Shown: positions 20,325 through 39,407 of the stretch, one piece after another
Layout of the letters: each line of letters begins with the position of its first letter
How positions within the stretch are numbered: the stretch's first letter is position 1
Assembly (NCBI RefSeq): GCF_000143965.1
Contig: NC_014365.1
Span: 2,569,501 to 2,633,500 of the forward strand
Origin: Desulfarculus baarsii DSM 2075
GTDB lineage: Bacteria; Desulfobacterota; Desulfarculia; Desulfarculales; Desulfarculaceae
Direction of reading: 5' to 3'
DNA: 64,000 bases
Notes under the pieces: generated by a model
What the model saw: the letters and a program-made list of their open reading frames with translations, nothing else
The model's database searches: none
Told to the model about the DNA's origin: nothing
Program-made: the position numbers and the translations under genes

Positions 20325-21498
20325 ACAGACCTTGGGCCTGGTGATGATCCTGAAAAACGAGGCTCACAATTTAAAGCATTCGCTAGAACCATTGGCCTGC
20401 TTGTTCGACGAAGTGGTGGTCGTCGATACCGGCAGCAGCGACGACACGCCGCGAATCTGCACGCATCTCGGAGCAAAAGTATTTTTTTTCAAGTGGATAG
20501 ATGACTTCGCGGCCGCGCGGAACCATGGCCTCATGCACGCCCAGAGCGATTGGTTGCTTTGGCTTGACGCCGACAACGCCATGCCGCCAGCATCCGTGAC
20601 GACGCTACGCTCCTTGTTGCCCACGGAAAAAAACGCGATCATCTGGGCACAGGAATACGTCACAAGCACTGGCGGCCGCTTGTGGCAAAAACGTTGCTTC
20701 CCGCGAAGCCCGGCCGTCAGGTTCCACGGTCGTGTGCACGAGCAACTAATGCACCCGGCCGGTTGGCGCGACATCGCAAGCCCCGTAGCCATCAAGCATT
20801 GGGGCTATGAAGACCCGGCGCGCGTCAAGGCGAAGGGTAGTTATTATTTGGAGTTGCTCCAACGCTCCCTGGCCGACGATCCGTCTGATTTCTATAATCA
20901 TTTCCAAGCCGCCCGCTGCCTGGCCAATCTGCGACGCTTCGATGACGCCATTGATCATCTGTGGCAAGTCGCGCGCGATCGGCAAGCGCCGGCGCAAAAC
21001 GCCGGGCTATGGGTGCAGGCAAACGCTGACCTGGCGCGCCTGTTGGAACGCCAAGGGAAACATGAAACAGCGGCCATGCTCCTCGACCATGTGCTCGAAG
21101 AGCTGCCGCGCTCCGGCCTGGCCCACTTTCATCGCGGCAGGCTGGCCCACGCCATGAGCCAATGGCAATCCGCGCGTCATCATCTTGAATTAGCATTTAA
21201 ACTTGGCCTGGGCTCTCCGGTGGTGGACCTGGACCCGGTCAAAACGCAGGCCCAGGCCGGCTATTACCTTGGCCAAGCGCTTTGGCGCCTGGGTGAGCTG
21301 AAGGCCGCTCGGCTTTCATTCGAGCGAACGCTTGAATTAGTACCCGGCGATCTCGCCTGCCGCGCCCAATTGGCCAAACTCCTGCTGGAGCAAAGCGACG
21401 CCACAGCTGCCCGCGGACAAGCCGAAACGATGCTCCGCCTGAGGCCCGGCGACCCGACGGCCCTGCGTCTGCTGCGGGCATGCCAGGAGGCCCCTTGA
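20317..21498 (+). CDS. Family 2 glycosyltransferase with TPR tail
   Basis: The protein is 393 aa. The GT2 domain (about residues 1-230) shows LVMILKNEAHNLKHSL, VVVVDTGSSDDTPRI and the DXD-type WLLWLDADNAMPP. The rest is TPR-like helical repeats (RLLERQGKHETAAMLLDHVL, then LKAARLSFERTLELVPGD). GTG 20317 lies inside the end of the previous gene (8-base overlap). Proteins of this build are common in flagellar glycosylation clusters. Its codon usage shows more TTA, ATA and AAA codons than the flanking flagellar genes. Confidence 0.85.
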   Translation: MVEQTLGLVMILKNEAHNLKHSLEPLACLFDEVVVVDTGSSDDTPRICTHLGAKVFFFKWIDDFAAARNHGLMHAQSDWLLWLDADNAMPPASVTTLRSLLPTEKNAIIWAQEYVTSTGGRLWQKRCFPRSPAVRFHGRVHEQLMHPAGWRDIASPVAIKHWGYEDPARVKAKGSYYLELLQRSLADDPSDFYNHFQAARCLANLRRFDDAIDHLWQVARDRQAPAQNAGLWVQANADLARLLERQGKHETAAMLLDHVLEELPRSGLAHFHRGRLAHAMSQWQSARHHLELAFKLGLGSPVVDLDPVKTQAQAGYYLGQALWRLGELKAARLSFERTLELVPGDLACRAQLAKLLLEQSDATAARGQAETMLRLRPGDPTALRLLRACQEAP

Positions 21499-21500
21499 TC

Positions 21501-23267
21501 ATGCGCATCTGCTTTGTCACCGATGGCGAGGAGTTTCATGGCGCCAGCCCCGAGGAAAGGGCGTTGGGCGGCTCGGAAACCGCGCTTGTGCAGATGGCGC
21601 GAGCGCTGGCGCGGCGCGGTCACAGCGTTCAGGTATTTTGCCGCTGCCCGGCCCCGGGCTTGTATCATGGCGTAATTTATCATGATCGCACGACAATGAC
21701 GGCGTCGGTCCTCCGCGAAAGCTGGGACGTCCTCATCGTCAGCCGTTTTTTCGGCGCGTTTAGCCTGCCTTTCCAGGCCGGGCTGACCGTGCTGTGGAAC
21801 CACGACATCCTCGACCACTCGGCCGAGTTGGCCAGGCATCTCCAGACAATAGACATCATGTTCGTGCTCAGCCGGTTTCACGCCCAAGATTACGCCGGCA
21901 AACTTGAAGCATGCGCTAACAAGCTGGTGCAGACACGCAACGGGCTTGACCTGGGTCTGCTGGAAAGGGCCGCGGCCGGCGTCACGCGCACGCCCGGCAG
22001 AATGATCTATGCCTCCCGACCAGAGCGAGGCTTAAAGCTTTTGCTTGAACAAATCTGGCCCCGGCTGCTTCGGCAATTCCCTCATTTGCGCCTGACCATC
22101 TGCGGTTATCAGTTGGGGAATACGCCAATTCACCCGTCGCTGCAAAAAAAATACATTGAAATTGAACGTTTGACCCAAAAAACCCCCGGAGTTGAGGTGC
22201 TGGGGCCGCTGGCCAAAGAGCCCTACTACGCTCATTTGGCAAGCTGCGAGTGCATGCTTTATCCTTGCGCGTTTCCAGAAATTTCCTGCATCGCCGCCCT
22301 GGAGGCCCAGGCCTTGGGCGTGCCGATCGTCACCAGCGACCGCTTCGCCATGGCCGAGACAGTGCTCACGCCACAATTCAGAGTGGGCGGTGAGCCCGGC
22401 TCGAACGGGTATATAGATCAATTTATCATGGCCGTACAATCGGTTATCAGCAGTCCGCAGCAGGCGGCCGATCGCGCCGCCGCGGCCAAGGCAACCGTCG
22501 TCAGCCATAATTCGTGGGACGCCATCGCCGGCCAGTGGGAAGAACTGTTTTTCGACACGATGGCCGAACGCAGGGTCAAGCATCCCATGGCCGTGGCCGC
22601 CGACCAGATAATCCACGGAGAACGCCTGGCGGCCAGCAGGCTTTTGCAGCGCCCCCTACCCGCGCCGCACGAGTCCCCGCCGCCAGACCCCAATGAAAAC
22701 GCATTGATAGCCGAGTTAACCCGCCTTATCGACTTGACCACGGGCCCTTCCGCCACGCCAAACATCGGCGTGGTCTCCATCGACCACGGCCGCACGGCCG
22801 CCGCCATCGCCGCCGCCCGGCCTGGCCTGGCCATCAGTTCGGCCGATGAGCATGGCCCCGCCGCCTCTTTTGACTTGCTGGTCATCCGCGACGTCATCGA
22901 ACGAGCCGCCGAACCCGACGCTAAATTAAAGCAAATGCTCGAACTGTGCCTATCAACCGGCCACGTGCTCCTGTGCGTGGCCAGCGGGGCCTGGCCCTTG
23001 ATCTGTCCCGGTCACGCCTCGCGCAACTTTGATTTGGACCAAGACGACTTGCGCGAGCTGCTGGCCGGTCGGCCCGCCGTGTTTTCATTCGTCCCGCAGG
23101 GGCTGGTCAAAACCGGCGCCAGGGCATACCGCGCCGGGCGTTGGCTGGCCCTGGCCCCGGTCGATGGACCGCTGCCGGGCAAGATAACCCTTGAAAACCG
23201 TCACTTGCGTGCGCGGATCGCCCCGTCGCAGGTGGAGGCCGAGGTGCTCCGTGCCCGGCTTCTCTAG
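21501..23267 (+). CDS. Family 4 glycosyltransferase with methyltransferase-like tail
   Basis: The protein is 588 aa. Residues about 1-350 form a GT4 enzyme: MRICFVTDGEEFHG, GGSETALVQMARALARRGH, VLWNHD, then ASRPERGLKLLLE and FPEISCIAALEAQALGVPIV. Residues about 400-560 look like a class I methyltransferase fold (FDLLVIRDVIERAAEPDAKL, then LSTGHVLLCV), but the SAM-binding glycine motif is replaced by VVSIDHGRT, so activity is doubtful. AGGAGG lies 10 bases before ATG 21501. It starts 2 bases after the previous gene. Confidence 0.78.
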   Translation: MRICFVTDGEEFHGASPEERALGGSETALVQMARALARRGHSVQVFCRCPAPGLYHGVIYHDRTTMTASVLRESWDVLIVSRFFGAFSLPFQAGLTVLWNHDILDHSAELARHLQTIDIMFVLSRFHAQDYAGKLEACANKLVQTRNGLDLGLLERAAAGVTRTPGRMIYASRPERGLKLLLEQIWPRLLRQFPHLRLTICGYQLGNTPIHPSLQKKYIEIERLTQKTPGVEVLGPLAKEPYYAHLASCECMLYPCAFPEISCIAALEAQALGVPIVTSDRFAMAETVLTPQFRVGGEPGSNGYIDQFIMAVQSVISSPQQAADRAAAAKATVVSHNSWDAIAGQWEELFFDTMAERRVKHPMAVAADQIIHGERLAASRLLQRPLPAPHESPPPDPNENALIAELTRLIDLTTGPSATPNIGVVSIDHGRTAAAIAAARPGLAISSADEHGPAASFDLLVIRDVIERAAEPDAKLKQMLELCLSTGHVLLCVASGAWPLICPGHASRNFDLDQDDLRELLAGRPAVFSFVPQGLVKTGARAYRAGRWLALAPVDGPLPGKITLENRHLRARIAPSQVEAEVLRARLL

Positions 23268-24798
23268 CACCAACGCCCCGGCCACGGCGGACCGTCCGCT
23301 CATCCTGGCCATTCAACTGGCCCGCCTGGGTGATTTCTTGCAAACAACGCCCCTGCTGGCCCACCTGGCCCGGCGACGCCCCCATGCCCGCATCGCGGCC
23401 ATGGTCACGCCAGAGCAGGCCCCCTTGGCCCGACGTTGCCCGGACCTCGACGAGGTCATAATCATCAAACGTAACGAAATCAACGCATTATCTGGAAGCT
23501 GCCCTGATCGGCGCGCCCTGGCCCAACTCGACAACCGCCTCGCCGAGCTGCGCCCCCGGCACATCTTCAACCTCAACATGAGCATGCCCAGCGCCCGCCT
23601 GGCCCAGGCCTGGCCCAAGGCCGGACTGACGGGTTGGCGCTTTTCGGCCCAAGGCGACGCCCTCGTCGGCGAGCCCTGGTTTGGTTTCATGATGAACATG
23701 GTGGCCGATCGCCGCCTGACCAGGCACCATCTCAGCGACTTGCTTGCCTCTTTCGCCGACCCGCCGGGCCCGGCCGTGGGACGCCTGCGCTATCAGGTCG
23801 GCCCGCGTTCGCGCGAACGCGCCGCCCAGCTTTTGCCCCGCGACGGTCGGCCCGTGGTCGCCCTGCAGCTTGGCGCCAACAATGACCTGCGCCGTTGGCC
23901 GGTCAACCGCTTCGCCGCCCTGGCCGACGGGCTCATCGCCGCCGGTTGCGCACCGTTGCTGATCGGGGCGCGCGCCGAAGGCGACCTCGGCCGGCGCATG
24001 AAGGCGTCCATGGCTGGATCGCACAACCAACTCATCGATATCATGGGTAAAACAGACCTACCAACCTTGGCCGCCGTGCTGGAAGGCTGCGCCTTGGTTG
24101 TCTCCAACGACACCGGCACCTTGCACCTGGCCACTGCCGTGGGCGCGCCGACGCTGGCCCTGTTCATGGGCCCGGCCCAGGCCCACGAGACCGGGCCTTA
24201 CGGCCAGGGGCATCTGGTGTTGCAGGCGCGTGACATCTGCGGGCCGTGCCAGGAGCAAACGCCCGTTTGTGGCGGGGCCGCGCCGTGCCGCCGGCTGATC
24301 GCCCCCGAATTGGTCCTGGCCACCGGCCTGGCCCTGGCCACCGGCCAAAGCGCCGCCCAAGCCTGCCGAAACGTGGATTTCGGCCCAGGCGTGCAGGCCC
24401 TGGAAGGCGTCATCGACCGCTTTGGCCAACGTTACAGGCCGCTTGGGCCCAACAAGCCGCTGGGGCGCATCGAGGCCTTGGCCCTGGCCCTGCGCGAGGC
24501 CGGGCGCGTGCTGATCCGTTCGACGCACGATTTTCGCGCCGCCGAACTGGCCGCCGAATTGGCCGCCGAACACCTGCCGCCAAGCGACCAGGCCCGCGCC
24601 GACATTGACGCCTTGGCGCGAACGGCCCAGACCCTGGCCTGGGCGGCGGCGGATGGCCAGCGCGAGGCGGCCTTGGGCCTGTTGCCGCGAGCGCCGGAGC
24701 TCAAGCCCCTGGCCTCGCTGGTCGGCGGCGGCGCGCCGCGTCTGGCCTTGGCGTGCCAGGCCGCGACCCAAAGCCTGGAGATTTGCGCCGCGTTGTGA
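23251..24798 (+). CDS. Family 9 (heptosyltransferase-type) glycosyltransferase
   Basis: This 515-aa protein has the GT9 pattern: LAIQLARLGDFLQTTPLL at the N-terminus, VVALQLGANNDLRRWPVNRF and LVVSNDTGTLHLATAVGAPT with LALFMGP after it. A Cys-rich stretch (DICGPCQEQTPVC) follows, as in several GT9 proteins. A helical extension of about 150 residues forms the C-terminus. GTG 23251 has GAGG 6 bases upstream and lies 17 bases inside the previous gene. In this place it probably adds a sugar to a flagellin glycan, though a lipopolysaccharide role is possible. Confidence 0.82.
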   Translation: MPGFSSTNAPATADRPLILAIQLARLGDFLQTTPLLAHLARRRPHARIAAMVTPEQAPLARRCPDLDEVIIIKRNEINALSGSCPDRRALAQLDNRLAELRPRHIFNLNMSMPSARLAQAWPKAGLTGWRFSAQGDALVGEPWFGFMMNMVADRRLTRHHLSDLLASFADPPGPAVGRLRYQVGPRSRERAAQLLPRDGRPVVALQLGANNDLRRWPVNRFAALADGLIAAGCAPLLIGARAEGDLGRRMKASMAGSHNQLIDIMGKTDLPTLAAVLEGCALVVSNDTGTLHLATAVGAPTLALFMGPAQAHETGPYGQGHLVLQARDICGPCQEQTPVCGGAAPCRRLIAPELVLATGLALATGQSAAQACRNVDFGPGVQALEGVIDRFGQRYRPLGPNKPLGRIEALALALREAGRVLIRSTHDFRAAELAAELAAEHLPPSDQARADIDALARTAQTLAWAAADGQREAALGLLPRAPELKPLASLVGGGAPRLALACQAATQSLEICAAL

Positions 24799-24940
24799 TC
24801 GGGCAGTGGCCTTAGTGACGAAAAAACTTTTGATCATGCGGTGTTATGGTTTATCATGACCGCAGATGGCCCCCGCGGCCAACCATTGCCGCCCCCGCGC
24901 GGCCATCTCCCCCGCCGAAGGGAGAAACCAGGAGAACGAC

Positions 24941-25555
24941 ATGGAAATTATCTTGGACGGCAAGGCCATTGCTGACGAATTGACCGGCGAAAACCTCATG
25001 GACATGCTCCAAGACCTGGCCGAAAAACGCCTGGGCGACGACCTGGCCATTCGTGAGCTTTTGATCAACGGCTCTCCCTACGAGGAAGCGGTCCACGGCG
25101 CGCCCGAGGAAATCTCGCGCCAGGCCATCCAGCGCCTGGAGATCGAAACCATCAGCACCCGCGATCTGGCGCTGGGTTTTCTGCAAAACTTCCCGCCGAC
25201 CCTGGCCACACTGGCCGAGGCCATCGAAAAAGTGGCCGAGCTTTTCCGCATCGGCGACGAACAGACGGCCAACGAGGAGTATCTGCAGTTTCTGGAAGCG
25301 CTGGAAATCCTGCTGGAAACGCTCCAGCAATCCAGCGACGCCCTGGGCCTGGACATGGAGCGCATCCACGCCGACGGCGTCTCGGCCCAACACCGCCTGG
25401 AACGCCTGGCCGGCCTCACCACCGAAATGCTCGCCGCCCAGGAACAAGACGACTGGGTGCTCTTGGCCGACCTGCTGCAATACGACCTCAAGCCGGAGAT
25501 GAACGCCTGGGCCAAGCTCATGGAACAGATGCGGCGGATGGCCCTGGCCTGCTGA
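24941..25555 (+). CDS. Unrecognised acidic helical protein in the glycosylation island
   Basis: This 204-aa protein matches no family I know. It is acidic and almost wholly helical, with leucine-rich amphipathic helices (LTGENLMDMLQDLAEKRLGD, EEYLQFLEALEILLETLQQS) and no signal or membrane segment. ATG 24941 has AGGAG 6 bases upstream. A 142-bp gap precedes it, so it may have its own promoter, but I saw no clear sigma-54 or sigma-28 site. Cytoplasmic chaperone or adaptor roles would fit its build; that is speculation. Confidence 0.6.
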   Translation: MEIILDGKAIADELTGENLMDMLQDLAEKRLGDDLAIRELLINGSPYEEAVHGAPEEISRQAIQRLEIETISTRDLALGFLQNFPPTLATLAEAIEKVAELFRIGDEQTANEEYLQFLEALEILLETLQQSSDALGLDMERIHADGVSAQHRLERLAGLTTEMLAAQEQDDWVLLADLLQYDLKPEMNAWAKLMEQMRRMALAC

Positions 25556-25574
25556 CGCCCGAACGGCGGTCGTC

Positions 25575-27158
25575 ATGGATCACCTGGCCCGCAACCTGGA
25601 GGCCCTGGCCCAGCGCCAGCCCGAACTGAGCCGCCGCCTGGCCGGCTTGGCGCCCCACCCCGCCGCGCGGATCACGCCCAGCCGAGATGGCTGGCCCACC
25701 CTGCGCCTGGACGGGCAGTGGTGGTGCTCTTCGGTGGCCCCGTGGGATGAGGGCCGCCGCCTGGCCGCCGAGGCGCCGGACGGTCCGTTGGCCGTGCTGG
25801 GCTTTGGCCTGGGCTATCACGTCGAACCATTGGCCGATGGCGACGTGCTGGTCTGGGAGCCCGACGCCAGGCTCTTGCGCAGCGCCCTGGCCGCCCGCGA
25901 CATGAGCGCCTGGCTGGCCAAGGTGCGCCTCTGCCTGGAACCACCCAGCGCCGACCAGGCCGCCGGCCGGGCCGTGCTGCTGCACCGGCCCACGGCCCGG
26001 CTTCACCCCGAGGCCGCCGCCGTCCTGCAGCGCTTGGCCACCGCCCCGCGGCCGGCTCGACGGCCGACACGACCGCGGGTGTTGCTCGCCCCACCGATCA
26101 TGGGCGGCTCGCTGCCCGTGGCCCTGTGGTGCGCCCAGGCCCTGGAGCGTCTGGGTTGCCAGGTGCGGGTTTTGCCCTTTCACCAGGCCGCGCCGGTCTA
26201 CGAGGTCATGCGCCGCAGCGCCCAGCCCATCGAGCGCATCGGCAAAGCCCAGGCGCCGATGCTGGCCTTTTTCAGCGAACTGGCGCTGCTGGCGGCCGAT
26301 GATTTTCAGCCGCACCTGTTTTTGGCCCTGGCCCAAGCGCCGCTTCTGCCGCGCGCGGTGGAGGCCATGGGCGCGCGAGGGGTGGCCACGGCCTATTGGT
26401 TTGTCGAAAACCATCGCCTCTTCGATTACTTCAGCCTCATCGCCGCCAGCTACGAGCACTTTTTTCACATCCAGGGCGAACCTTTTGACCACGCGCTGAG
26501 CCGCCTGGGGGCCAACGGGCATCACCTGCCGCTGGCCGCCCATCCGCCTTGCCACCGCCCCGTCAGCCTCTCCGACGACGACCACCGTGATTTCGGCGCG
26601 CCCATCGGTTTCATGGGCTCGGGGATTTATGGCAATCGCCGCCGGGCCCTGGCCAAAGTGGCCCAAAGCGACCTTGGCCTACGCCTCTGGGGCAGCGAAT
26701 GGCCGACCGAGGGGCCCTGGGCCCGGATCGTCGCCCTGGGCGGCCGCCGCCTGGCCGACGACGAAGTGGTCAAGGTGTACAATGCCTGCCAGGCGCTGAT
26801 CAACCTGCACTCCGACGTGGATCCGGCCACGCCTCTGGGCCGTAGCGACTTCATCAACCCGCGGACCTTCGAGATCCCGGCCTGCGGCGGCTTGCAACTG
26901 GTGGACATGGCCGCCGGCCTGGACCAGGCGTTCGACCTGGGCCGCGAGTTGGTCGTGGTGGAAAGCGTGGCCGATCTCATCGAAAAGGCGAGACATTTCC
27001 TGGCCCATCCCGCCGAGCGCGCGGCCATCGCCGCCGCCGGACGACAAAGGGTGCTGGCCGAACACACCTATTTTCATCGCATGAGTCAACTGCTGGATAT
27101 CTGCCTGGGCGCCGGGCAAGAAGGGGTGGCCAAAGATGAGCGATCCGCGCGCGCTTAG
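25575..27158 (+). CDS. Maf N-domain fused to CgeB-like glycosyltransferase
   Basis: The protein is 527 aa. Residues about 40-130 (WWCSSVAPWDEGRRLAAE, PLAVLGFGLGYHVEPLADGD, VLVWEPDARLLRSAL) match the N-terminal domain of Maf/DUF115 proteins such as the one at 18810. From about residue 170 it is CgeB-like: RVLLAPPIMGGSLPVALWCA, TAYWFVENHRLFDYF, GFMGSGIYGNRR, ALINLHSDVD and RTFEIPACGGLQLVD. The two parts are normally in separate proteins. It overlaps the next gene by 23 bases. Confidence 0.78.
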   Translation: MDHLARNLEALAQRQPELSRRLAGLAPHPAARITPSRDGWPTLRLDGQWWCSSVAPWDEGRRLAAEAPDGPLAVLGFGLGYHVEPLADGDVLVWEPDARLLRSALAARDMSAWLAKVRLCLEPPSADQAAGRAVLLHRPTARLHPEAAAVLQRLATAPRPARRPTRPRVLLAPPIMGGSLPVALWCAQALERLGCQVRVLPFHQAAPVYEVMRRSAQPIERIGKAQAPMLAFFSELALLAADDFQPHLFLALAQAPLLPRAVEAMGARGVATAYWFVENHRLFDYFSLIAASYEHFFHIQGEPFDHALSRLGANGHHLPLAAHPPCHRPVSLSDDDHRDFGAPIGFMGSGIYGNRRRALAKVAQSDLGLRLWGSEWPTEGPWARIVALGGRRLADDEVVKVYNACQALINLHSDVDPATPLGRSDFINPRTFEIPACGGLQLVDMAAGLDQAFDLGRELVVVESVADLIEKARHFLAHPAERAAIAAAGRQRVLAEHTYFHRMSQLLDICLGAGQEGVAKDERSARA

Positions 27159-27649: not shown

Positions 27650-27687
27650 GACCGGGGGCGGGATGGCCTGCCCCCGGTCGGTCTTTT
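27650..27687 (+). terminator. Rho-independent terminator between converging operons
   Basis: A 10-bp perfect stem (GACCGGGGGC at 27650 with GCCCCCGGTC at 27670) is followed on the plus strand by GGTCTTTT. It ends the glycosylation island; fliS ends at its downstream edge on the other strand. Confidence 0.75.
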
Positions 27688-28127
27688 CAGACTTGGGCCC
27701 CGGCCCTGGTCTGGGCCTTTTGCGGCGTGGGCCGCTGCTGCAAGACCTCCTGGGCCTCGGGGCTGGCCACGGCCTCGCGCCAGGCGTCATTGAGGGTGCT
27801 GAGCATGCCAATCACGCCGTCGAGCTGTTCAGCGTCGCCCTTGACCTTGGCTTTGACCAACTGGTCGCCCATGAACAGGTAGAGCCGGCGCAGGTTGGCG
27901 GCGATTTCTCCGCCGACTTCCAGGTTGAGCGAGGCGTTGAGTTCGTCCAGGATGTCCTGGGCGCGGTTGATCAGGCCGGAAGCGCCGGGGATGTCGTTTT
28001 CGGCCAAGGACGCCTTGGCCTTGGTCAAATAGCTGATCGCCCCTTCGTAGAGCAGAACTATCAACCGTCCCCGATCCACGGTGGCCACCTGGGTCCGCTT
28101 GTATTGCTGCTGTCCGTAACTCATCAT
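27687..28127 (-). CDS. fliS: FliS, flagellin export chaperone
   Basis: FliS binds the flagellin C-terminus and keeps it from polymerising in the cytoplasm. The 146-aa protein has the family core QQQYKRTQVATVDRGRLIVL with LYEGAISYL after it, then LINRAQDILDELNASLNLEV and LYLFMGDQLVKAKV. It starts with two ATG codons; the first (28127) is used here, with GAGGTGG upstream. It follows fliD by 58 bases on the minus strand. Confidence 0.94.
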   Translation of the reverse strand: MMSYGQQQYKRTQVATVDRGRLIVLLYEGAISYLTKAKASLAENDIPGASGLINRAQDILDELNASLNLEVGGEIAANLRRLYLFMGDQLVKAKVKGDAEQLDGVIGMLSTLNDAWREAVASPEAQEVLQQRPTPQKAQTRAGAQV

Positions 28128-28185: not shown

Positions 28186-30603
28186 CTAGTCGCCGCTGGA
28201 GCTGGGCAACTCGGCGATGGCGCTTTCCAGCGCGGTCTGGGTGTTGCTCAGCGTCGACAACGTGGCTTCCAGCCGGGCGAATTTTTCCACCTGCCGCTGG
28301 CGATAAAGCTCTAGCCTGGCTTCCTCGCTGTCTATCTTCTTGTCGATGTTCTTGACGATGCCCTCGTAGTTGCTGATCAACACCGAGCAGATGCCGGTCT
28401 CGTCGTTGGTCTGGGTGTCCATCAGGTCGTACATCTGTTTGGCCACGCCGCTGCTGCCGGTGGTCGTGTCGTTGATGAACAGCTTGGCCACCGCCTCGGG
28501 ATTGTCGGCCAGGGCGTCTTCAAGGATGTCTTCGTCGATGATCCAGCGGCCCTCGTCGTCGGGGTTGCTGGTGATGCCGATCTGCTGAAGCAGGGTGTAG
28601 GCGTCCTCGCCGTCGGTCAAGCCGGGGATGGAGCTGTTGAGGAGGGAGTCGATCTGCGACTTGGCGATCTGGAAGGCGTAGTTGCCGATCAAGACGCCGG
28701 TTTCGTCGCCTTCGGCGTCATACTTGGTGTTGCTGCGGATGTAGTCCTGCACGTAGTTGACGGCGTTGATGAAGGCCTCGATCTTGTCGGCCACGGCGGA
28801 GGCGTCCACCGAAACGGTCACTCGCGAGGTGCCGCCGTCGACCAGGGCCAGCGAAACGCCGGTGATCACATCCGTGACGGTGTTGGAGGTGCGCTGCAAA
28901 AACACGTCGCCCGTCGGGAAGCCGTCGACCTGGATCATGGAGTTGGTGGCCAACTGGCTGGTGCTGAAGCCGCCGCCGGCGTCGCCGCCGCTGGAAAAAT
29001 TGGAGCCGGTGAAGTCGTGCTCGACGCTGGAGATCTGGTACTGCGCGCCGGTGTTGGTGCCGGTGAGCACCAGCCGATAGCTGTTGGGCAGGCCCAGGCC
29101 ATCGTTGACGATGCTGGCCTCGACGCCGGGGTTGTTTTCGTCGTTGTTGATCTTGTCCACCAAGTCGGCCAGCACGGTGCCGGCCTCCACCGCAACACTG
29201 GTGGTTTCGCCGCCGTAGGTGTAGGTGAAGGTGGCGTCGGAGTCGGTGACGGGGGTGATGGTGGTGTCGGAAAAACCTTCGTGGATCAGCTTGCAGTTCT
29301 GCGCCAGCCCGGTGTCCTGGCCCTGCTGCTTGTCCGGGGCGAAGACGTTGACCTGAAAATCGTCGCCGTGGGTCACCGTGCCGGCGTCCAGCTTGATCGT
29401 GAAGCCCTGATCCACTTCGTAGCTCTGATCGGCGTCGGAGAGGCTGACCGTGCCGGTGTTGCCCAGCGAGTCGGTCCAGCGCATGACGATGGTGTCGCCG
29501 CCGCCGCCTGCCTGCAGGTTGCCGGCGCTGATCACCTCGAAGGAAAAAGTCTTGCTCACCGAGCCTTGATAGTTGCCCTCGGTGCTGATGGCCGGGCCGG
29601 ACCAAGTGCCCAACTCGGCGTCATCGATGTCGTTGGCGTAGGCGTTGACCGAAAAACTCTCGCCGTCGCTGACCGAACCCTCGCCAAGCTGAATGAAAAC
29701 GCCCTTTTCCACCTCGATGCTGTCGCCGGGCGTATAGTCGGCGGGCACGGTGATCGTGCCCGAGCCGCCGCCGGCGCTGGCGGTCCAGTTCAACTCGAAA
29801 CTGTCGGCGCCGATGGTCGAGGGATTGGAGCTGGAGGCCACGGTGAAGGTGTAGCCGTAAACGCTGGCCACGGATTTGTCGCCGGTGAACATGCCGGTCA
29901 GGCCGATGGAGGCCCCGCCCCATGAAGACGTGTCGCTGACGACCATGTCCTTGCCGCCCAACGACAGCGCCGTGGGGTTTTGCGTGGCCGTGATGCGCCC
30001 GGCGTCGCCGCCGGTCCCGCTGGTCAGCACCAGGTGGTATTGATTGCTGGAGGTGCCGTCGTTTTCGATGCTGGCCACGATGTTTTCGCCGGTGACGGCG
30101 TTTATCTTGTCGACGATGTCGTTCAGCGTGTCGGCGGCGTCGATGGCCACGTTGTAGGACACGCCGTTGGATTCAAGAATAAGCGTGCCGCCCGAGCCGC
30201 CGTAGGCCGTGGTGTCGGCGTCGGCGCAGCCGGCGGTGCTGACGATGTGTTTGACGTTTTGCCCAACCGTGACGGTGGATGCGCCGGTGGAGGCGCTGGA
30301 GGTGGCCGTGGCCGTGACCACGCTGGTGTTGCTGGAGGTGGCCGCCCGCGAGAGGAATTCCTTCTCGGTGTCCATGGCCCCGGCGGCTTCCTCGAGGGCC
30401 AGCATGCGCGTGTTCAGCGCGGTGATGACCTCGATCTTTTCTTCCCAGGTTGCCTTCCAGGTCTCGAGCCTGTTCATGTTGATGGATTCGATCTCCACCA
30501 ACTGGTCGATGACTTCGTTGAAGTCGGTGCCCGAGCCAAGGCCGGAAATAACGATCGAGCCCGAAAGCAGCGCCGAGGTGAGGGCGGATGTGGAAGAAGC
30601 CAT
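28186..30603 (-). CDS. fliD: FliD, filament cap protein (enlarged)
   Basis: FliD caps the filament and guides flagellin folding. The N-terminus (ISGLGSGTDFNEVIDQLVEI, then NMNRLETWKATWEEKI) and the C-terminal coiled coil (GIVKNIDKKIDSEEARLELY with RQRQVEKFARLEATLS after it) are typical. At 805 aa it is well above the 450-690 aa usual for FliD; the excess is in the central beta-rich region, which is rich in Gly, Thr, Ser and Asp and has repeated DSLGNTGTVSL-like strands. ATG 30603 has GAGG 7-8 bases upstream. Confidence 0.93.
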   Translation of the reverse strand: MASSTSALTSALLSGSIVISGLGSGTDFNEVIDQLVEIESINMNRLETWKATWEEKIEVITALNTRMLALEEAAGAMDTEKEFLSRAATSSNTSVVTATATSSASTGASTVTVGQNVKHIVSTAGCADADTTAYGGSGGTLILESNGVSYNVAIDAADTLNDIVDKINAVTGENIVASIENDGTSSNQYHLVLTSGTGGDAGRITATQNPTALSLGGKDMVVSDTSSWGGASIGLTGMFTGDKSVASVYGYTFTVASSSNPSTIGADSFELNWTASAGGGSGTITVPADYTPGDSIEVEKGVFIQLGEGSVSDGESFSVNAYANDIDDAELGTWSGPAISTEGNYQGSVSKTFSFEVISAGNLQAGGGGDTIVMRWTDSLGNTGTVSLSDADQSYEVDQGFTIKLDAGTVTHGDDFQVNVFAPDKQQGQDTGLAQNCKLIHEGFSDTTITPVTDSDATFTYTYGGETTSVAVEAGTVLADLVDKINNDENNPGVEASIVNDGLGLPNSYRLVLTGTNTGAQYQISSVEHDFTGSNFSSGGDAGGGFSTSQLATNSMIQVDGFPTGDVFLQRTSNTVTDVITGVSLALVDGGTSRVTVSVDASAVADKIEAFINAVNYVQDYIRSNTKYDAEGDETGVLIGNYAFQIAKSQIDSLLNSSIPGLTDGEDAYTLLQQIGITSNPDDEGRWIIDEDILEDALADNPEAVAKLFINDTTTGSSGVAKQMYDLMDTQTNDETGICSVLISNYEGIVKNIDKKIDSEEARLELYRQRQVEKFARLEATLSTLSNTQTALESAIAELPSSSGD

Positions 30604-30671
30604 GGGTCGTCCTCGAATTAGAGTGGGGCAAGGACTTCGCCGCCGCCGATGGCGGAGTTCACCGCTTGTAA

Positions 30672-30688
30672 AGCAACATGCGTGCCAG
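30672..30688 (-). promoter_or_regulatory. Sigma-54 promoter of fliD-fliS
   Basis: On the minus strand CTGGCACGCATGTTGCT carries TGGCACG, four bases, then TTGCT. The only deviation from YTGGCACGRNNNTTGCW is C at the R position. It lies 68 bases before the fliD start codon, within the 324-bp gap upstream of fliD. Confidence 0.85.
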
Positions 30689-30873
30689 CAATGTCCAAGA
30701 CCCGATAATGCAAGCATGACAATTGGTTGCCAACACTTTCATTATCAGCGGCATGGCGTCCTTCCGGGCAACATCTGCCCAGCGGCCCACGCCTTACAAG
30801 GACCGCATCGGCATGTCTTGCCCAAGACTTGAATGAATTCGACAAATCACCGGTTTTATAATAGGCGATCAAC

Positions 30874-30907
30874 AAAAGCGGCCGAGGCGCTAACCCCGGC
30901 CGCTTTT
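30874..30907 (-). terminator. Bidirectional-looking terminator after the GT2-TPR gene
   Basis: AAAAGCGGCCG (30874-30884) pairs with CGGCCGCTTTT (30897-30907) around a 12-base loop. Read on the minus strand the T run follows the stem and lies 20 bases past the stop of the large glycosyltransferase gene. Confidence 0.75.
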
Positions 30908-30927
30908 GTCGGTGTTTTGACGTGCGC

Positions 30928-33396
30928 TCAGGAAACCAGGCGCAAAATCTCGGCGACGACGTCACCGACGGGGGCGCGGCCGTTTTCGCCGCCGCGCCAC
31001 GAAAGGCAATAAAAGCCTTCGGCGGTGGGCGTCATGCTCAGCTTGTCGTAACCTCGCTGGCCAAGCACCGCGAAATGCCTGGGCCGCAGGCCGGCCAAGG
31101 CCGCTTCGATGATGGCGTAAACCTGCTGATAAGCGGCGAAAACCCGTGAGTCAACACCGCTGAAGCTCTGCTGGGCCCATTCCAGGCAGTTGACGCCGAT
31201 GACCAACACGTCCACCGCCGGCAGCTTGGCGGCCAGGGTCAGTTTGTTGCGTTCGATCTGATACAACCGGCCTTCGTGCACGCGGTTGCTGGTCAGCAGG
31301 CTGGTGGCCAGCAGTTGCTCGGCCTTGCTGGTAACGAAATCGCTGCGGTAGCCGCTGGCCAAGACGCGGGGCAGCAACTCGGGCGGACTCACCAGGCCCT
31401 CGCTCAACAGGCCGCCCGGGTAGCCCGAGACGGCCCAGCCGTTGATGGCCGGCGCGGGATGACACAGCGGCGCGGCCAGCAAGCCGACTCGCTTGGAACC
31501 GGCCATGGTCCGCCAAATATCCGGCGCGGCCATGTCGGCCAGACTTTTGGGGTTGTCCATGCCCAAACGGCCGGACAGGCCGTGCTGGGCCGGCGCGCGC
31601 CCGCTGAAAAGCGTGGCCCAGCGAGCCAAGTCATCCTCGGGGTCGACGCCATCGAACATGGCCCGGCCCCAGGCCCGATGCATCAGGAAGTGGGGGGCCA
31701 CTTCGCAGACCGCCTCGGCGCCAAGCCCGCCCACCAGAAACACCAGAAGCGTCGGCGGCGTCTCGGCCACGCTGGGCGTCGCCGCGCGCTCGAGCTGAAG
31801 CCGGCTCAACGTCTCGCGGGCGGCTTGGTCGCCGGGCTGGATGGCCAGATAGCGTTCGAGATAGACATGGGCCGCCTCGACCTCGCCTTTGGCCATGCTC
31901 AACTCGGCCAGCGCCCGCCAGGCCCACGGGTGGCCCGGGTGGGCGCAGAGGCCCTTGACCAAGGCCTGGCCGGCCTCGGCGTGGCGGCCCAGGCCCAACA
32001 AGGCCTGGGCCTGGCCCAGATGGACCTCGGCGTCGGCGATCACGTGATTGGCCGCCAGGCCGAAGTTTTTGGCCGCGTCTTCCAGCCTGTGCTCGTCCAG
32101 GGCCCGGCGCGCTTCCATTTTATATTGTCGGCCCAGCTTTTCGGCGGCCTTGGACTCGGCCACGGGCTTGAGCGGGGCCAGCCAATCCCAATGGGGCCGC
32201 GCGGCCATGGCCAGATTGATCAACTCGACGGTCAGTTGGGGGTCGTCGCCGGTGAGCAAAGTCTTGACCAGGCGTCGGCATTCGGGCTCGCCGCGCTCGT
32301 CGGCCACCAAGCGCCCGAAAACATCGATCGCCGCGGCGGCGTCGCCACGGTTGGCCTCGGCCAGGGTCCACAGGTGCAACACCTGGGGGAACTGGTTGAA
32401 GGTCTGGTTTTCGGCGAACAAAAAGTCCTCTGGCTTGCTGCGCGCCAGGTCTTGCATCTCGAAAAAGCGTCGCCCGGCCAGGCAGACATCATCCCACTGC
32501 CGTTTGTAATAATAGGCGTGAACTAAAAACAGCCAAGGATCCGGATAGTTGGGCATGGCCTCCAGGCAGGCGTGGGCGTAGGTGACGGTCTCGTCCCAAC
32601 GTTGCAGGGCGTAAAGCGCGCCCAAAAGCGGATAGTAGCAGCGCGGGAAGTCGGTGCCCGGCGCCAGTTGCTCCTGGGCCAGACGAATGGCCGTGAGCGA
32701 CTCGTCCACGGCCTCCAGGCAGGTGTCGATGCGCGAGGCCAGGGTCTGGGCCAGATAGGCGTGGGCCTTGAAGTTGTGGGGTTCGCGCTCGATGGCTTGG
32801 CGCAGCATGCCCAGCCGCCGCTGATGCTTGGCCTCCATGGTCTGGGGGTCCAGGTTGTAGCCGTAGTGGGTCAGCTTGACGTCCGAACGGGTGTAGTGGC
32901 CCTTGATGCGCGGTTCGTTGTGCACCAGGCCGGCGTAATGAAAGCCCACGCCATTGCGGAACAGGCGCGGGTGCAGCAGGAACGTCGACCCGCCGCCGGG
33001 CACGTCGTTGTAGAGCTTGAACAGGAAGCAGTTGAGCCCCTCCGGCGCGTTGGTCAGTTGGCGCATCAGGGGCGCGGTTTGCTGGTCGAGTTCCTCGTCG
33101 GCGTCGAGGATGAGGATCCAGTCGCCGGTGCAGTAGCCGATGGACTGGTTGCGGTGGGTGGAAAAATTGTTTTCCCACGGGTGGTGATAAACCTTGGCCC
33201 CGTAGGAGGCGGCGATCTCCACGGTGCGGTCGGTGGAGCCGGTGTCGACGACGATGATCTCGTCGACCCAGGGCTTGACGCTTTCCAGGGCCCGCGGCAA
33301 CATTTTCTCTTCGTTCTTGACCATCATGGCCACGCTGATGGTGGGCCTTTTGCCTTGGCCTTTAGGGGCGACATTTTTTTGTCTACTGCCAGCCAT
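30928..33396 (-). CDS. GT2-TPR protein with a degenerate alkaline-phosphatase-fold tail
   Basis: The protein is 822 aa and has three parts. Residues about 20-260 are a GT2 domain (ISVAMMVKNEEKMLPRALES, IIVVDTGSTDRTVEI, DWILILDADEELDQQ). Residues about 260-560 are TPR repeats. Residues about 560-822 resemble type I phosphodiesterases of the alkaline phosphatase superfamily: LLVFLVGGLGAEAV, LFSGRAPAQHGLSG, VGLLAAPLCHPAPAINGW, HFAVLGQRGY. The metal ligands and nucleophile of that family seem to be replaced. ATG 33396 has GGAGG 4 bases upstream. Its place between fliD and the flagellins suggests flagellin glycosylation. Confidence 0.78.
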   Translation of the reverse strand: MAGSRQKNVAPKGQGKRPTISVAMMVKNEEKMLPRALESVKPWVDEIIVVDTGSTDRTVEIAASYGAKVYHHPWENNFSTHRNQSIGYCTGDWILILDADEELDQQTAPLMRQLTNAPEGLNCFLFKLYNDVPGGGSTFLLHPRLFRNGVGFHYAGLVHNEPRIKGHYTRSDVKLTHYGYNLDPQTMEAKHQRRLGMLRQAIEREPHNFKAHAYLAQTLASRIDTCLEAVDESLTAIRLAQEQLAPGTDFPRCYYPLLGALYALQRWDETVTYAHACLEAMPNYPDPWLFLVHAYYYKRQWDDVCLAGRRFFEMQDLARSKPEDFLFAENQTFNQFPQVLHLWTLAEANRGDAAAAIDVFGRLVADERGEPECRRLVKTLLTGDDPQLTVELINLAMAARPHWDWLAPLKPVAESKAAEKLGRQYKMEARRALDEHRLEDAAKNFGLAANHVIADAEVHLGQAQALLGLGRHAEAGQALVKGLCAHPGHPWAWRALAELSMAKGEVEAAHVYLERYLAIQPGDQAARETLSRLQLERAATPSVAETPPTLLVFLVGGLGAEAVCEVAPHFLMHRAWGRAMFDGVDPEDDLARWATLFSGRAPAQHGLSGRLGMDNPKSLADMAAPDIWRTMAGSKRVGLLAAPLCHPAPAINGWAVSGYPGGLLSEGLVSPPELLPRVLASGYRSDFVTSKAEQLLATSLLTSNRVHEGRLYQIERNKLTLAAKLPAVDVLVIGVNCLEWAQQSFSGVDSRVFAAYQQVYAIIEAALAGLRPRHFAVLGQRGYDKLSMTPTAEGFYCLSWRGGENGRAPVGDVVAEILRLVS

Positions 33397-33552
33397 GATC
33401 CCTCCGCCGCTGGGAAAAATCTCGTCAAACTGTTTAGTTAGCATTGAGTTTATGTTTCCGCCGCGGCGGTGTCAACCACCCATGACGACGCCCGCGGCGA
33501 TTGACGCCACCGCGGCGCGGCGCTTTTTTTCGACCCCACGACAAAAAAAGCC

Positions 33553-33689: not shown

Positions 33690-35393
33690 ATGAGTCTCAT
33701 TATCAATCACAACATGATGGCCGCCAACGCGGCGCGCAACCTGACGACGACCTACGGGCGGCTTTCGACGTCGGTGCAGCGCCTGAGCTCGGGCCTGCGC
33801 ATCAACTCCGCCGCCGACGACGCCGCCGGCCTGGCCATCCGCGAAATGATGCGCGCCGACATCGCCACCCTCAACCAGGGCGTGCGCAACGCCAGTGACG
33901 CCATCAGCATGATTCAGACCGCTGAAGGCGCCATGAGCGTCATCGACGAAAAGCTCATCCGCATGAAGGAGCTGGCCGAACAGGCCGCCACCGGCACCTA
34001 CACCACCGCCCAGCGCATCATCATCAACTCCGAGTATCAGGCGATGGCCGCGGAAATCGACCGTATCGCCAACGCCACCGACTTCAACGGCGTCAAGGTG
34101 CTCGACGGTAGCCTCCTGACTCTGCACGACGGCTCTGGCATGAAGATCCACTTCGGCACCGGCAACGACGCCGCCGAGGACTACTACTTCATCACCATCG
34201 GCGACATGCGGGCCACCTCGGTCACCGGTTTGCAGGTCGGCGGCGGCACCGGCCTGGATTCCGTGTGGCGCACCACCGGCCTGGACATGGCCGCCTCCAC
34301 CGACACCATGGCCAACAGCGGCGCCTTCGGCATCCAGACCAGCACCGACGGCGTGACCTGGACCACCTACGGCTTCCTGACCGTCGACGACGACGACACC
34401 CTCGACGACGTCGTGGCCAAGTTCAACGACGGCGCGACCAGCCGGGGCAACGCCGCCACCAACAGCATCACCTTCGACTCCGGCTTCTCCTCGACGGACC
34501 TGGCCGGCGACACCATCACCATCAACGGCCACGCCTTCACCTTCAGCACCAGCACCAGCACCAGCACCGCCAACACCATCGGCCTCCAGGGCCTGGGCTC
34601 GGTGGCCTCCATCGCCGCCGCCACCCAGTTCGCCATCAACACCTGGGCCTCGGTGGGCAACGCCAACGGCGTCTACGCCACCATCAACGCCACGGCCAGC
34701 ACCCTGACCGTCAGCCTCACCGACCGCGACTTCGGCGACAACACCTCGACCCTGGCCAGCAGCAACACCACCCTGACCCTGGGCGGGGCCACCTTCAGCG
34801 GCGGCGGAACCGACACCACCATCACCGCCGCGGCGGTCGAGGACGAGGACGGCACGGGCTACGAACTGCAAATCACCGCCGAAGGCAACACCCAGGTGCG
34901 CCTGGTCCAGACCAACGGCGCGGCCTTCACCGCCGCCAGCGCCACCGTGGGCGGCACGCCGACCACCGGCACCACCGTCTCCGAAATGGCCCTCAACACC
35001 GGGGCGGCGGCCTATGTCTCCGACTGGGCCGACGGCGACGACGACACCGAGTGGTTCAGCCGCAACGCCTCTGGCGCATGGTGGGACGGCGCCAACATCA
35101 TCACCCAGAGCGCGGCCCAGCTCGCCCTGGCCCAGCTCGACGACGCCATCAACCGCAAGGACACCGCCCGCGCCTCCTTGGGCGCGACCCAGAACCGCCT
35201 GGAAAACACCATCACCAACCTGCAGATCCAGGCTGAAAACCTCCAGGCCGCCGAATCGCGCATCTCCGACGTGGACGTGGCCCTGGAAATGACCGAGTTC
35301 ACCCGCAACAACATCCTGGCCCAGTCGGCGGTGGCCATGCTGGCCCAGGCCAACAGCCTGCCGCAACTGGCCCTGCAGCTCCTGGGCGGTTGA
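33690..35393 (+). CDS. fliC: Flagellin 1
   Basis: This 567-aa flagellin begins MSLIINHNMMAANAARNL with VQRLSSGLRINSAADDAAGL, and ends with the conserved SRISDVDVALEMTEFTRNNI and a C-terminal helix to LQLLGG. The central domain (about residues 180-460) is Thr/Ser/Gly-rich and contains a short TSTSTSTA run. AAGGAGG precedes the ATG. It has its own sigma-28 promoter and a downstream hairpin. Its centre is close to that of flagellin 2 and unlike that of flagellin 3. Confidence 0.96.
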   Translation: MSLIINHNMMAANAARNLTTTYGRLSTSVQRLSSGLRINSAADDAAGLAIREMMRADIATLNQGVRNASDAISMIQTAEGAMSVIDEKLIRMKELAEQAATGTYTTAQRIIINSEYQAMAAEIDRIANATDFNGVKVLDGSLLTLHDGSGMKIHFGTGNDAAEDYYFITIGDMRATSVTGLQVGGGTGLDSVWRTTGLDMAASTDTMANSGAFGIQTSTDGVTWTTYGFLTVDDDDTLDDVVAKFNDGATSRGNAATNSITFDSGFSSTDLAGDTITINGHAFTFSTSTSTSTANTIGLQGLGSVASIAAATQFAINTWASVGNANGVYATINATASTLTVSLTDRDFGDNTSTLASSNTTLTLGGATFSGGGTDTTITAAAVEDEDGTGYELQITAEGNTQVRLVQTNGAAFTAASATVGGTPTTGTTVSEMALNTGAAAYVSDWADGDDDTEWFSRNASGAWWDGANIITQSAAQLALAQLDDAINRKDTARASLGATQNRLENTITNLQIQAENLQAAESRISDVDVALEMTEFTRNNILAQSAVAMLAQANSLPQLALQLLGG

Positions 35394-35537: not shown

Positions 35538-35709
35538 GGTTCTTGAAAGCTCTGGAGAAGGCGACGGCCTTCATGCCCGTGGGGACGGGTGACAAGACTT
35601 TCGAGATTGGCACGGGGACCCGCCAACGCATCGCTAGGGAGTCAAAAACAAAAGCCGCTCCGATATGGACTTCGGGCCGCGGCGCAAAAACAACCACGGA
35701 GGGGATCAT

Positions 35710-37401
35710 ATGTCTCTTTACATCAACCACAACATGATGGCGTCCAACGCCGCGCGCAACCTGTCCAACGTCTACGGTGACCTGGCCACCTCGGTGCAGC
35801 GCCTGTCGTCGGGCCTGCGCATCAACTCCGCCGCCGACGACGCCGCCGGCCTGGCCGTGCGCGAGATGATGCGCGCCGACGTCGCCGCCCTCAACCAGGG
35901 CATCAGGAACGCCTCCGACGCCATCAGCATGATTCAGACCGCTGAAGGCGCCATGAGCGTCATCGACGAAAAGCTCATCCGCATGAAGGAGCTGGCCGAG
36001 CAGGCCGCCACCGGCACCTACACCACCGCCCAGCGCTTGATCATGGACTCGGAATACCAGGCCATGGCCGCGGAAATCGACCGTATCGCCAACGCCACCG
36101 ACTTCAACGGCATCAAGCTCCTCGACGGTAGCCTGCTGACCCAGCACGACGGCTCGGGCCTCAAGGTCCACTTCGGCACGGGCAACGAGGCCGCCGAAGA
36201 CTACTACTACGTCTCCATCGGCGACATGAAGGCCACCTCCATCACCGGCCTGCAGGTCGGCGGCGGGGCCGGCGAAGGCGCGACCTGGCGCACCACCGGC
36301 CTGGACATGGCCGCCTCCACCGACGCCATGGCCAACAACGGCACCTTCGGCATCCAGACCAGCACCGACGGCACGACCTGGAGCAACTACGGCTTCCTGA
36401 CCGTCGACGCCGGCGACACCCTCGACGACGTCGTGGACAAGGTCAACGCCGGCAACGCCGCCACCAACAGCATCACCTTCGCCGCCGGCTCCTCCTCGAC
36501 GGACCTGGCCGGCGACACCATCACCGTCAACGGCCACGCCTTCACCTTCAGCACCGGCACCAGCACCAGCACCGCCAACACCATCGGCATCCAGAACCTG
36601 GGCTCGGTGGCCTCCATCGCCGCCGCCACCCAGTTCGCCATCAACACCTGGGCCTCGGTGGGCAACGCTGACGGCGTCTACGCCACCATCAACGCCACGG
36701 CCAGTTCCCTGACCGTCAACCTCACCGACCGCGACTTCGGGGCCAGCACCGACACCCTGGCCAGCAGCAACACCACCCTGACCCTGGGCGGGGCCACCTT
36801 CAGCGGCGGCGGAACCGACACCACCTCCGTCACCGCATCGGCCGTGGCCGACGCAGACGGCTCGGGCTACGAACTGCAGCTCACCGGCGGCACGGGAGTG
36901 CAGGTGCGCCTGGTCCAGACCAACGGCGCGGCCTTCACCGCCTCCACCGCCACCGTGGGCGGCACGCCGACCACCGGCACCACCGTCTCGTCCATGGCCC
37001 TCAACACCGGGGCGGCGGCCTATGTCTCCGACTGGGCCGACGGCGACGAGGACAGCGAGTGGTTCAGCATCGGCTCCACCGGCCCGACCTGGGACGGCGC
37101 GCACATCCAGACCCAGAGCGCGGCCCAGCTCGCCTTGGCCCAGATCGACGCGGCCATCAGCAAGAAGGACACCGCCCGCGCCTCCTTGGGTTCGACCCAG
37201 AACCGCCTGGAAAACACCATCACCAACCTGCAGATCCAGGCAGAAAACCTCCAGGCCGCCGAATCGCGCATCTCCGACGTGGACGTGGCCCTGGAAATGA
37301 CCGAGTTCACCCGCAACAACATCCTGACCCAGGCGGCCGTCTCCATGCTGGCCCAGGCCAACAGCCTGCCGTCACTGGCCCTGAGCCTGCTGGGCGGCTA
37401 G
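35710..37401 (+). CDS. fliC: Flagellin 2
   Basis: This 563-aa flagellin begins MSLYINHNMMASNAARNL. Its N-terminal 175 and C-terminal 100 residues are nearly the same as in flagellins 1 and 3. The central domain aligns with flagellin 1 throughout (GFLTVDAGDTLDDVV, LAGDTITVNGHAFTFST, ATINATASSLTVNLTDRDFG). CGGAGGGG precedes the ATG and could be both ribosome site and CsrA target. It has a separate sigma-28 promoter and terminator, so it is a single-gene unit. Confidence 0.96.
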   Translation: MSLYINHNMMASNAARNLSNVYGDLATSVQRLSSGLRINSAADDAAGLAVREMMRADVAALNQGIRNASDAISMIQTAEGAMSVIDEKLIRMKELAEQAATGTYTTAQRLIMDSEYQAMAAEIDRIANATDFNGIKLLDGSLLTQHDGSGLKVHFGTGNEAAEDYYYVSIGDMKATSITGLQVGGGAGEGATWRTTGLDMAASTDAMANNGTFGIQTSTDGTTWSNYGFLTVDAGDTLDDVVDKVNAGNAATNSITFAAGSSSTDLAGDTITVNGHAFTFSTGTSTSTANTIGIQNLGSVASIAAATQFAINTWASVGNADGVYATINATASSLTVNLTDRDFGASTDTLASSNTTLTLGGATFSGGGTDTTSVTASAVADADGSGYELQLTGGTGVQVRLVQTNGAAFTASTATVGGTPTTGTTVSSMALNTGAAAYVSDWADGDEDSEWFSIGSTGPTWDGAHIQTQSAAQLALAQIDAAISKKDTARASLGSTQNRLENTITNLQIQAENLQAAESRISDVDVALEMTEFTRNNILTQAAVSMLAQANSLPSLALSLLGG

Positions 37402-37553: not shown

Positions 37554-37700
37554 GGTCTTTGAAAGCATTGAAACGGCCTCCGCCCACTGCCCCCCCCTGA
37601 GGCGACCCGGTTTCAACGCCCCCTCGATCGCAAGATAGCAGCAGTTGTCCGCTCGACAGGGAGGTTGGGCCGTGGGTAACCCATGGAGGCAGGGGGACGT

Positions 37701-39407
37701 ATGTCTCTTTACATCAACCACAACATGATGGCGTCCAACGCCGCGCGCAACCTGTCCAACGTCTACGGTGACTTGGCCACCTCGGTGCAGCGGCTGTCGT
37801 CGGGCCTGCGCATCAACTCCGCCGCCGACGACGCCGCCGGCTTGGCCGTGCGCGAGATGATGCGCGCCGACATCGCCGCCCTCAACCAGGGCGTGCGCAA
37901 CGCCAGCGACGCCATCAGCATGATCCAGACCGCTGAAGGCGCCATGAGCGTCATCGACGAAAAGCTCATCCGCATGAAGGAGCTGGCCGAGCAGGCCGCC
38001 ACCGGCACCTACACCACCGCCCAGCGCTTGATCATGGACTCCGAATACCAGGCCATGGCCGCGGAAATCGACCGTATCGCCAGCGCCACCGACTTCAACG
38101 GCATCAAGCTCCTCGACGGCAGCTTGCTCACTCAGCACGACGGTTCGGGCCTCAAGGTCCACTTTGGCACGGGCAACGAGTCGGCCGAGGACTACTACTA
38201 CGTCTCCATCGCCGACATGAAGGCCACTTCCATCACTGGCCTGCAAGTCGGCGGCGGGGCGTCCGGGGCGGAGGCAAGCGTCTTTCGCACCAACAGCCTC
38301 GACATGGCCAGCACATCCGACACGCTAGACCATTATGGGGCTTTCGGCATACAGCTAAGCAACGATGGCGCTGACTGGGGCCGATATGGCTACGTCAATT
38401 ACGGCCCCGGCGACACCCTCGACGATATCGTCAACAATATCAACCGCGGCAACGCCGGCGGCAACTTGGTTGACTTCAGCACCTGCACCACCACCGAGTT
38501 GGACGGAGAGTCCGTCTTCGTCAGTGGTTTTGAATACAGGTTCAACAACTCAACCCTGCCGGGCCTGACCGCCATCTCCCTGACCACCTTGAGCATCGGC
38601 ACCCAGGGAGCCTCCCTGGCCTCGGTGGCCCAGTGGTTCCAATGCGCCGTCAACTACAACGCCAGCGCCAGCCCGGGTTCATCCAAGTTGGTGGCTGTCT
38701 ACGATTCAGCGGAACCGCAGTCGGTCATCCTGAGCGCGACCAGCTTTGGTCTCGACGCCATGGCGATCACCAGCAGCTACTCCACCTTGGTCTTCATGAG
38801 CCCAACCTTCACCGGCGGCGGCCAAAACAACGCGGTAAGCGCCGAGGCGGTGCAAGATTCCGATGGCTCGGGCTGGGAGTTGCAGATCACCGCCACAAAC
38901 GGCCAGTACATGCGCCTGACCATGCCCGATGGCCAAGCCTTCGAGCTCAACGCGTCCAGCGAAGGCGGCGATCCCTCCGGCGACTCCGTCGACCCCACGG
39001 TGGCGCTGCGGATAGACCTATCCGGAACCTATGTTTATGCCGATTCACGGCTGGACCAGACCAACGAATGGTTCAGCCAGGGCGCGGGCGTGAGTTGGGA
39101 CGGGGCCAACATCCTCACCCAGAGCGCGGCGCAAGCGGCCCTGGGCCAGATCGACGCGGCCATCAACCGCAAGGACACCGCCCGCGCCAACCTGGGCGCC
39201 ACGCAAAACCGCCTGGAAAACACCATCACCAACTTGCAAATCCAGGCCGAAAACCTCCAGGCCGCCGAATCGCGCATCTCCGACGTGGACGTGGCCCTGG
39301 AAATGACCGAGTTCACCCGCAACAACATCCTCACCCAGGCGGCCGTCTCCATGCTGGCCCAGGCCAACAGCCTGCCAAACCTGGCCCTGAGCCTGCTGGG
39401 CGGATAA
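37701..39407 (+). CDS. fliC: Flagellin 3 with divergent central domain
   Basis: This 568-aa flagellin has ends almost the same as flagellins 1 and 2 (MSLYINHNMMASNAARNL; SRISDVDVALEMTEFTRNNI), but the centre (about residues 190-460) is different: FGIQLSNDGADWGRYGYVNY, SVFVSGFEYRFNNSTLPG, SAEAVQDSDGSGWELQITAT. It shares only scattered positions with the others there and lacks the TST run. The centre also uses more varied codons than the flanks. Two GGA motifs flank the ribosome site (37683-37697). Confidence 0.96.
   Translation: MSLYINHNMMASNAARNLSNVYGDLATSVQRLSSGLRINSAADDAAGLAVREMMRADIAALNQGVRNASDAISMIQTAEGAMSVIDEKLIRMKELAEQAATGTYTTAQRLIMDSEYQAMAAEIDRIASATDFNGIKLLDGSLLTQHDGSGLKVHFGTGNESAEDYYYVSIADMKATSITGLQVGGGASGAEASVFRTNSLDMASTSDTLDHYGAFGIQLSNDGADWGRYGYVNYGPGDTLDDIVNNINRGNAGGNLVDFSTCTTTELDGESVFVSGFEYRFNNSTLPGLTAISLTTLSIGTQGASLASVAQWFQCAVNYNASASPGSSKLVAVYDSAEPQSVILSATSFGLDAMAITSSYSTLVFMSPTFTGGGQNNAVSAEAVQDSDGSGWELQITATNGQYMRLTMPDGQAFELNASSEGGDPSGDSVDPTVALRIDLSGTYVYADSRLDQTNEWFSQGAGVSWDGANILTQSAAQAALGQIDAAINRKDTARANLGATQNRLENTITNLQIQAENLQAAESRISDVDVALEMTEFTRNNILTQAAVSMLAQANSLPNLALSLLGG

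Follow-up and report, generated by a model that had tools for sequence, protein, structure and literature searches.

A gene of Desulfarculus baarsii DSM 2075, located among flagellar genes, encodes an 822-aa protein in which a GT2 domain and a TPR region are followed by a C-terminal domain that has the predicted fold of type I phosphodiesterases and none of their canonical catalytic residues. We give a probability of about 0.6 to the reading that this protein is a GT2-TPR enzyme which modifies flagellin and to which a phosphodiesterase-fold domain, serving recognition and not catalysis, was added once. Such a lineage-wide, fixed pseudoenzyme of the alkaline phosphatase (AP) superfamily, carried on a probable flagellin-modifying enzyme, would provide a clear test of acceptor choice by protein glycosyltransferases and of the reuse of a metalloenzyme fold once its chemistry has been lost. 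Our literature searches yielded nothing relevant on pseudo-phosphodiesterase glycosyltransferases, no description of a glycosyltransferase guided by a pseudo-phosphodiesterase and, in the literature searched, none of a pseudoenzyme version of the AP superfamily; the initial annotation knew of no description of the architecture, and these searches found none published.

Predicted fold and former active site of the C-terminal domain

The window, a stretch of 64,000 nucleotides from the single contig of 3,655,731 bases that makes up the genome, contains the gene at 30928-33396 on the minus strand. The open reading frame is complete and free of internal stops, starts with ATG and has the ribosome-binding sequence GGAGG upstream, at 33401-33405. 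It codes for a GT2 (GT-A) domain (residues 16-182; 32851-33351, minus strand), a TPR/helical region recognized by Pfam TPRs and in an AlphaFold2 model (residues 183-542; 31771-32850, minus strand), and the tail (residues 546-822; 30931-31761, minus strand). The GT2-TPR architecture proposed in the initial annotation agrees with the Pfam results, where PF00535 reaches 84 bits against a cut-off of 23.3 and the TPRs also score above their cut-off.

The tail had been assigned to the AP superfamily, and the motif strings then quoted are indeed present in the protein. Taken alone, the 822-aa protein matches PF01663 with 14.5 bits (E 0.027), short of the 23 bits required; 12 of the 13 homologous domains match this family at E<=1, the best of them at E 1.5e-8, and when hhalign compares the tail with PF01663-type paralogs, P is 99.5% and E is 6.9e-23. 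Furthermore, AlphaFold2 modelling of residues 546-822 with 13 family sequences gave a pLDDT of 89.7 and a pTM of 0.91, and the top Foldseek matches of this model, at probability 1.00, include NPP3 and XacNPP (E about 1e-6), SPAP and phosphonoacetate hydrolase, so that the fold search led to the AP superfamily and not to an unlike fold. The query-normalised TM-scores against solved relatives are about 0.5, which we attribute to the caps and insertions of those structures; the large cap is absent from the tail. An alkaline-phosphatase/NPP fold is therefore predicted for residues 546-822 with good confidence.

Seven catalytic positions, a nucleophile and six metal ligands (D, D, H, D, H, H), were compared, using residue numbers that we take to be those of XacNPP. 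On the minus strand of the window, ligand D54 corresponds to G556 (31729-31731), the nucleophile to D589 (31630-31632), ligands D210 and H214 to E739 and Q743 (31168-31182), ligands D257 and H258 of the SDHG motif to Q780 and R781 (31054-31059), and ligand H363 to P790 (31027-31029). None of the seven canonical residues is kept, which bears out the proposal that every metal and nucleophile place had changed, including the changes read as DG to GLG and SDHG to GQRG. The nucleophile itself had been placed elsewhere, at the Thr next to TG, which is Ala (A594) in this protein. When PhnA PSFTNPNNLSIATG is aligned with entry 3t02 PSFANPNNLSIATG the nucleophile lies at G-10, and in XacNPP 7mw8 SLAFPNHYTLVTG it also lies at G-10, ten residues before the TG glycine; both 3t02 and 7mw8 are presumably engineered nucleophile mutants. 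Alignment with these solved proteins therefore puts the site at D589, five positions earlier, and rules out A594 as the lost nucleophile. Since position 589 is still non-canonical, being mostly Asp, the conclusion of a dead site stands even with the nucleophile moved.

A homolog with intact ligands was looked for, and every one of the 13 copies has lost its metal site: each keeps 0-2 of the seven catalytic residues and at most one of the six ligands. Position 589 is Asp in ten copies, Asn in one and Ser in two (G004 and G005). All 12 copies that extend to the D257 position have Gln there; Arg stands at the H258 position in 11 of these 12, the remaining copy having a gap. An acidic residue occupies position 739 in 12 of the 13. 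At the D54 and H363 positions the residue varies from copy to copy. The sporadic canonical residues, Asp at D54 (once, in G009), Ser at the nucleophile position (G004 and G005), His at H363 (G004) and Asp at D210 (four copies), appear to be left over from an active ancestor.

Mean identity among copies is 48% in the tail, 65% in the GT2 domain and 39% in the TPR region, and many of the invariant tail residues are Gly, Pro and Trp. The tail dN/dS is 0.225 in the close pairs G013/G016 and G006/G011a; a third pair, G003/G008, whose synonymous sites are almost saturated, gives 0.69. This conservation, seen in the mean identity of 48% and in a dN/dS of about 0.22 that indicates purifying selection from the two close pairs only, points to a pseudoenzyme and not to debris.

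Origin, distribution and flagellar neighbourhood

The fused protein was found in 13 copies from six genera, all of them Desulfarculaceae. An alignment scan of one genome per species, covering 84,980 species, returned 12 loci, only in Desulfarculaceae/Desulfarculales; because the scan works with short peptide patterns, more distant fusions may have escaped it. A contig scan with the single 822-aa protein as query gave no matches, and among 395 genomes of the phylum the fusion was not found outside Desulfarculaceae/Desulfarculales; a search of the phylum for the domain in other architectures turned up no further fusion. In the tree, the fused copies form one group (support 97/99) among tail-less GT2-TPR proteins, within a wider group supported at 89/75, so most simply the tail was gained once. 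In G006 (C37, L052:4246-4686) there is a broken remnant of a second copy, in which a GT2 start and a phosphodiesterase end lie in overlapping frames.

Related phosphodiesterases occur separately. The same genome encodes three paralogs (L002-L004) in which most catalytic residues are retained. One of them, the 451-aa L003 (L003:643-1998), was considered to lack a nucleophile, which is ruled out by the Ser present at G-10; it is followed by an adenylylsulfate-kinase-like ORF, and similar frames of 451-453 aa occur across the family. In a genome of another family (G078), a stand-alone capless PF01663 protein of 360 aa, L085 (L085:1492-2574), keeps all canonical residues and lies between a flippase-like and an acyltransferase-like gene. 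A search of 297 genomes of the phylum for similar proteins found only L085 itself.

The gene was described initially as being beside fliD and flagellins, and in the window it does lie between fliD-fliS and three flagellins. The order is flgI, flgJ, flgN, flgK, flgL, fliW and a glycosyltransferase island, then fliS (27687-28127, minus strand), fliD (28186-30717, minus strand), the GT2-TPR-tail gene, and flagellins at 33690-35393 (plus strand, divergent from the gene), 35665-37401 and 37683-39407. In the flgJ-type protein (9963-10760, plus strand), an M23 peptidase is joined to a rod-binding domain. A 19-bp hairpin just past the stop codon (30870-30911, minus strand; z -4.0) probably terminates transcription between the gene and fliD, and this strong hairpin suggests that the gene ends its own transcript. 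The island (17247-27158, plus strand) encodes a PF13524 glycosyltransferase, an MptE-like (PF01973) protein, GT4 and GT9 proteins, a second GT2-TPR protein (20317-21498, with VHE kept) and a glycosyltransferase with a weak Maf N-terminal match, and it probably serves flagellin glycosylation. Exact sigma-54 sites (TGGCACN5TTGCW) occur three times in the window, at 5612-5627 (plus), 17189-17204 (plus) and 30672-30687 (minus), the last two preceding the island and the probable start of fliD, respectively; a two-part scan for sigma-28-type promoters found none. In relatives, a protein of about 420 aa that is absent from the window is encoded between the gene and fliD (L037:7910-9178, L038:6502-7746, L034:3510-4766, L040:6436-7725); the one tested has a weak GT9 match.

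Across 20 genomes of the family, the gene is present in all 12 that have flagellin and in none of the eight that do not. These eight all belong to one genus, so the co-occurrence may reflect one loss event. A flagellar linkage of the homologs, which the initial annotation proposed to check, holds for nine of the 13 copies, window copy included, which adjoin flagellin and usually have fliD-fliS on the other side; the other four (G005, G008, G015 and the second G011 copy), two of them on short contigs, were not seen beside flagellar genes.

The GT2 domain

The closest PDB match of the GT2 part is GmaR (22ao, E 3.8e-31), with SunS and ThuS also matched, and the best full-length structural match of the protein is SunS/ThuS. 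D51, the DxD motif (D98/D100) and the C-terminal His (H177) are found in every copy covering those positions, and TPRs follow the GT2 domain. By these sequence features we class the GT2 part as GmaR/SunS-like, with one departure: the [VI]HE motif, IHE in GmaR and VHE in SunS/ThuS, is VHN here (residues 158-160; 32917-32925, minus strand), as in 11 of the 12 copies covering it. The catalytic base of inverting GT-A enzymes is the Asp/Glu of the xED motif (PMC7185993). We infer that the HE glutamate is this base, and the change to VHN could mean that glycosyl transfer is altered or lost. The domain had been called apparently intact; DxD, D51 and the C-terminal His uphold this, but with VHN in place of [VI]HE it is not assured.

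The same VHN is found in tail-less GT2-TPR proteins beside flagellin in G087 and, twice, in G094, and in those of G067 and G103, which have no flagellar gene in the stretches examined. HE is kept in the paralog of the island and in other flagellar GT2-TPR proteins of G069, G078 and G098. A frame of 1483 aa in G087 (L120:7344-11795), adjoining flagellin and fliW, contains three GT2 units, each with VHN.

Role of the tail and comparison with known systems

In the reading that we prefer, the gene product would be a GT2-TPR glycosyltransferase like GmaR and SunS that works in the cytoplasm and modifies flagellin. In the common ancestor from which the flagellated Desulfarculaceae descend, a GT2-TPR protein would have gained a C-terminal phosphodiesterase-fold domain, which would have lost its nucleophile and metal sites. 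Because the catalytic residues are gone and the domain is nevertheless conserved, the tail probably binds a partner or ligand and does not cleave it. The tail and the TPRs may jointly hold the acceptor, either flagellin itself or its complex with a chaperone, or else a glycan or nucleotide-sugar ligand, and in this way the tail would steer the GT2 domain. What is held would sit in the old active-site cleft, where the metal-nucleophile centre would be replaced by the invariant Gln-Arg pair and in most copies an Asp; judging from topology only, the conserved residues may cluster in this cleft. Binding of a glycan or phospho-ligand, as suggested initially, is possible, with Asp at the nucleophile site and Gln-Arg at metal-ligand sites. 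We propose only tentatively that an NPP-type phosphodiesterase, with the Gln-Arg pair and the usual Asp in its old catalytic centre, has come to bind a nucleotide sugar, a phosphoglycan or flagellin without metal and so guides the glycosyltransferase.

Alternatively, the tail might be regulatory: by binding either a protein of the FliS/FliD type or a regulator, it would couple glycosylation to flagellar gene expression or export. GmaR, a flagellin GlcNAc-transferase with TPRs, has the same order of GT2, TPRs and an extra C-terminal domain, and in GmaR that domain is regulatory, binding the repressor MogR as an antirepressor (PMC9638930). The position of the gene between flagellin and fliD-fliS is in keeping with such a role, but neither sequence nor fold searches matched the tail to the C-terminal part of GmaR and no candidate regulator gene was identified adjoining the gene, and we consider a regulatory tail unlikely. 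A purely structural or dimerisation element, needed for folding or stability and free of ligand, appears somewhat less probable still: the Gly, Pro and Trp among the invariant residues are those expected for maintenance of a fold, but the former catalytic positions are non-random, with Q780 and R781 fixed and position 739 nearly always acidic. That the tail is still an enzyme with other chemistry, for instance with D589 as a nucleophile and no two-metal site, would fit the Asp found there in most copies; neither metal site can be assembled, however, Ser or Asn also occur at 589 and the D54 and H363 positions vary, which makes continued catalysis very improbable.

The predicted fold of the tail is common to the type I phosphodiesterases/NPPs (PF01663; XacNPP, ENPP1-3, phosphonoacetate hydrolase), with which it also shares the DG and TG landmark positions and the C-terminal helix region; unlike those enzymes it lacks the nucleophile, the metal ligands and the large cap, and is fused to GT2-TPR. 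L085, which shares the capless PF01663 domain and the ERxKL and GFYC segments, may serve as a model of the ancestor, and differs from the fused tail in being canonical (ADG, T, DxxGH, ADHG, VH) and stand-alone. SunS and ThuS, peptide S-glycosyltransferases that modify the Cys of glycocins, resemble the protein in GT2 and helical repeats, whereas they keep VHE and their solved chains have no phosphodiesterase-fold tail. GmaR of Listeria, a flagellin O-GlcNAc transferase, is alike in its N-terminal GT2, TPRs, extra C-terminal domain and flagellar role, whereas its C-terminal domain is a MogR-binding antirepressor instead of a predicted NPP fold and it has IHE where the Desulfarculus protein has VHN.
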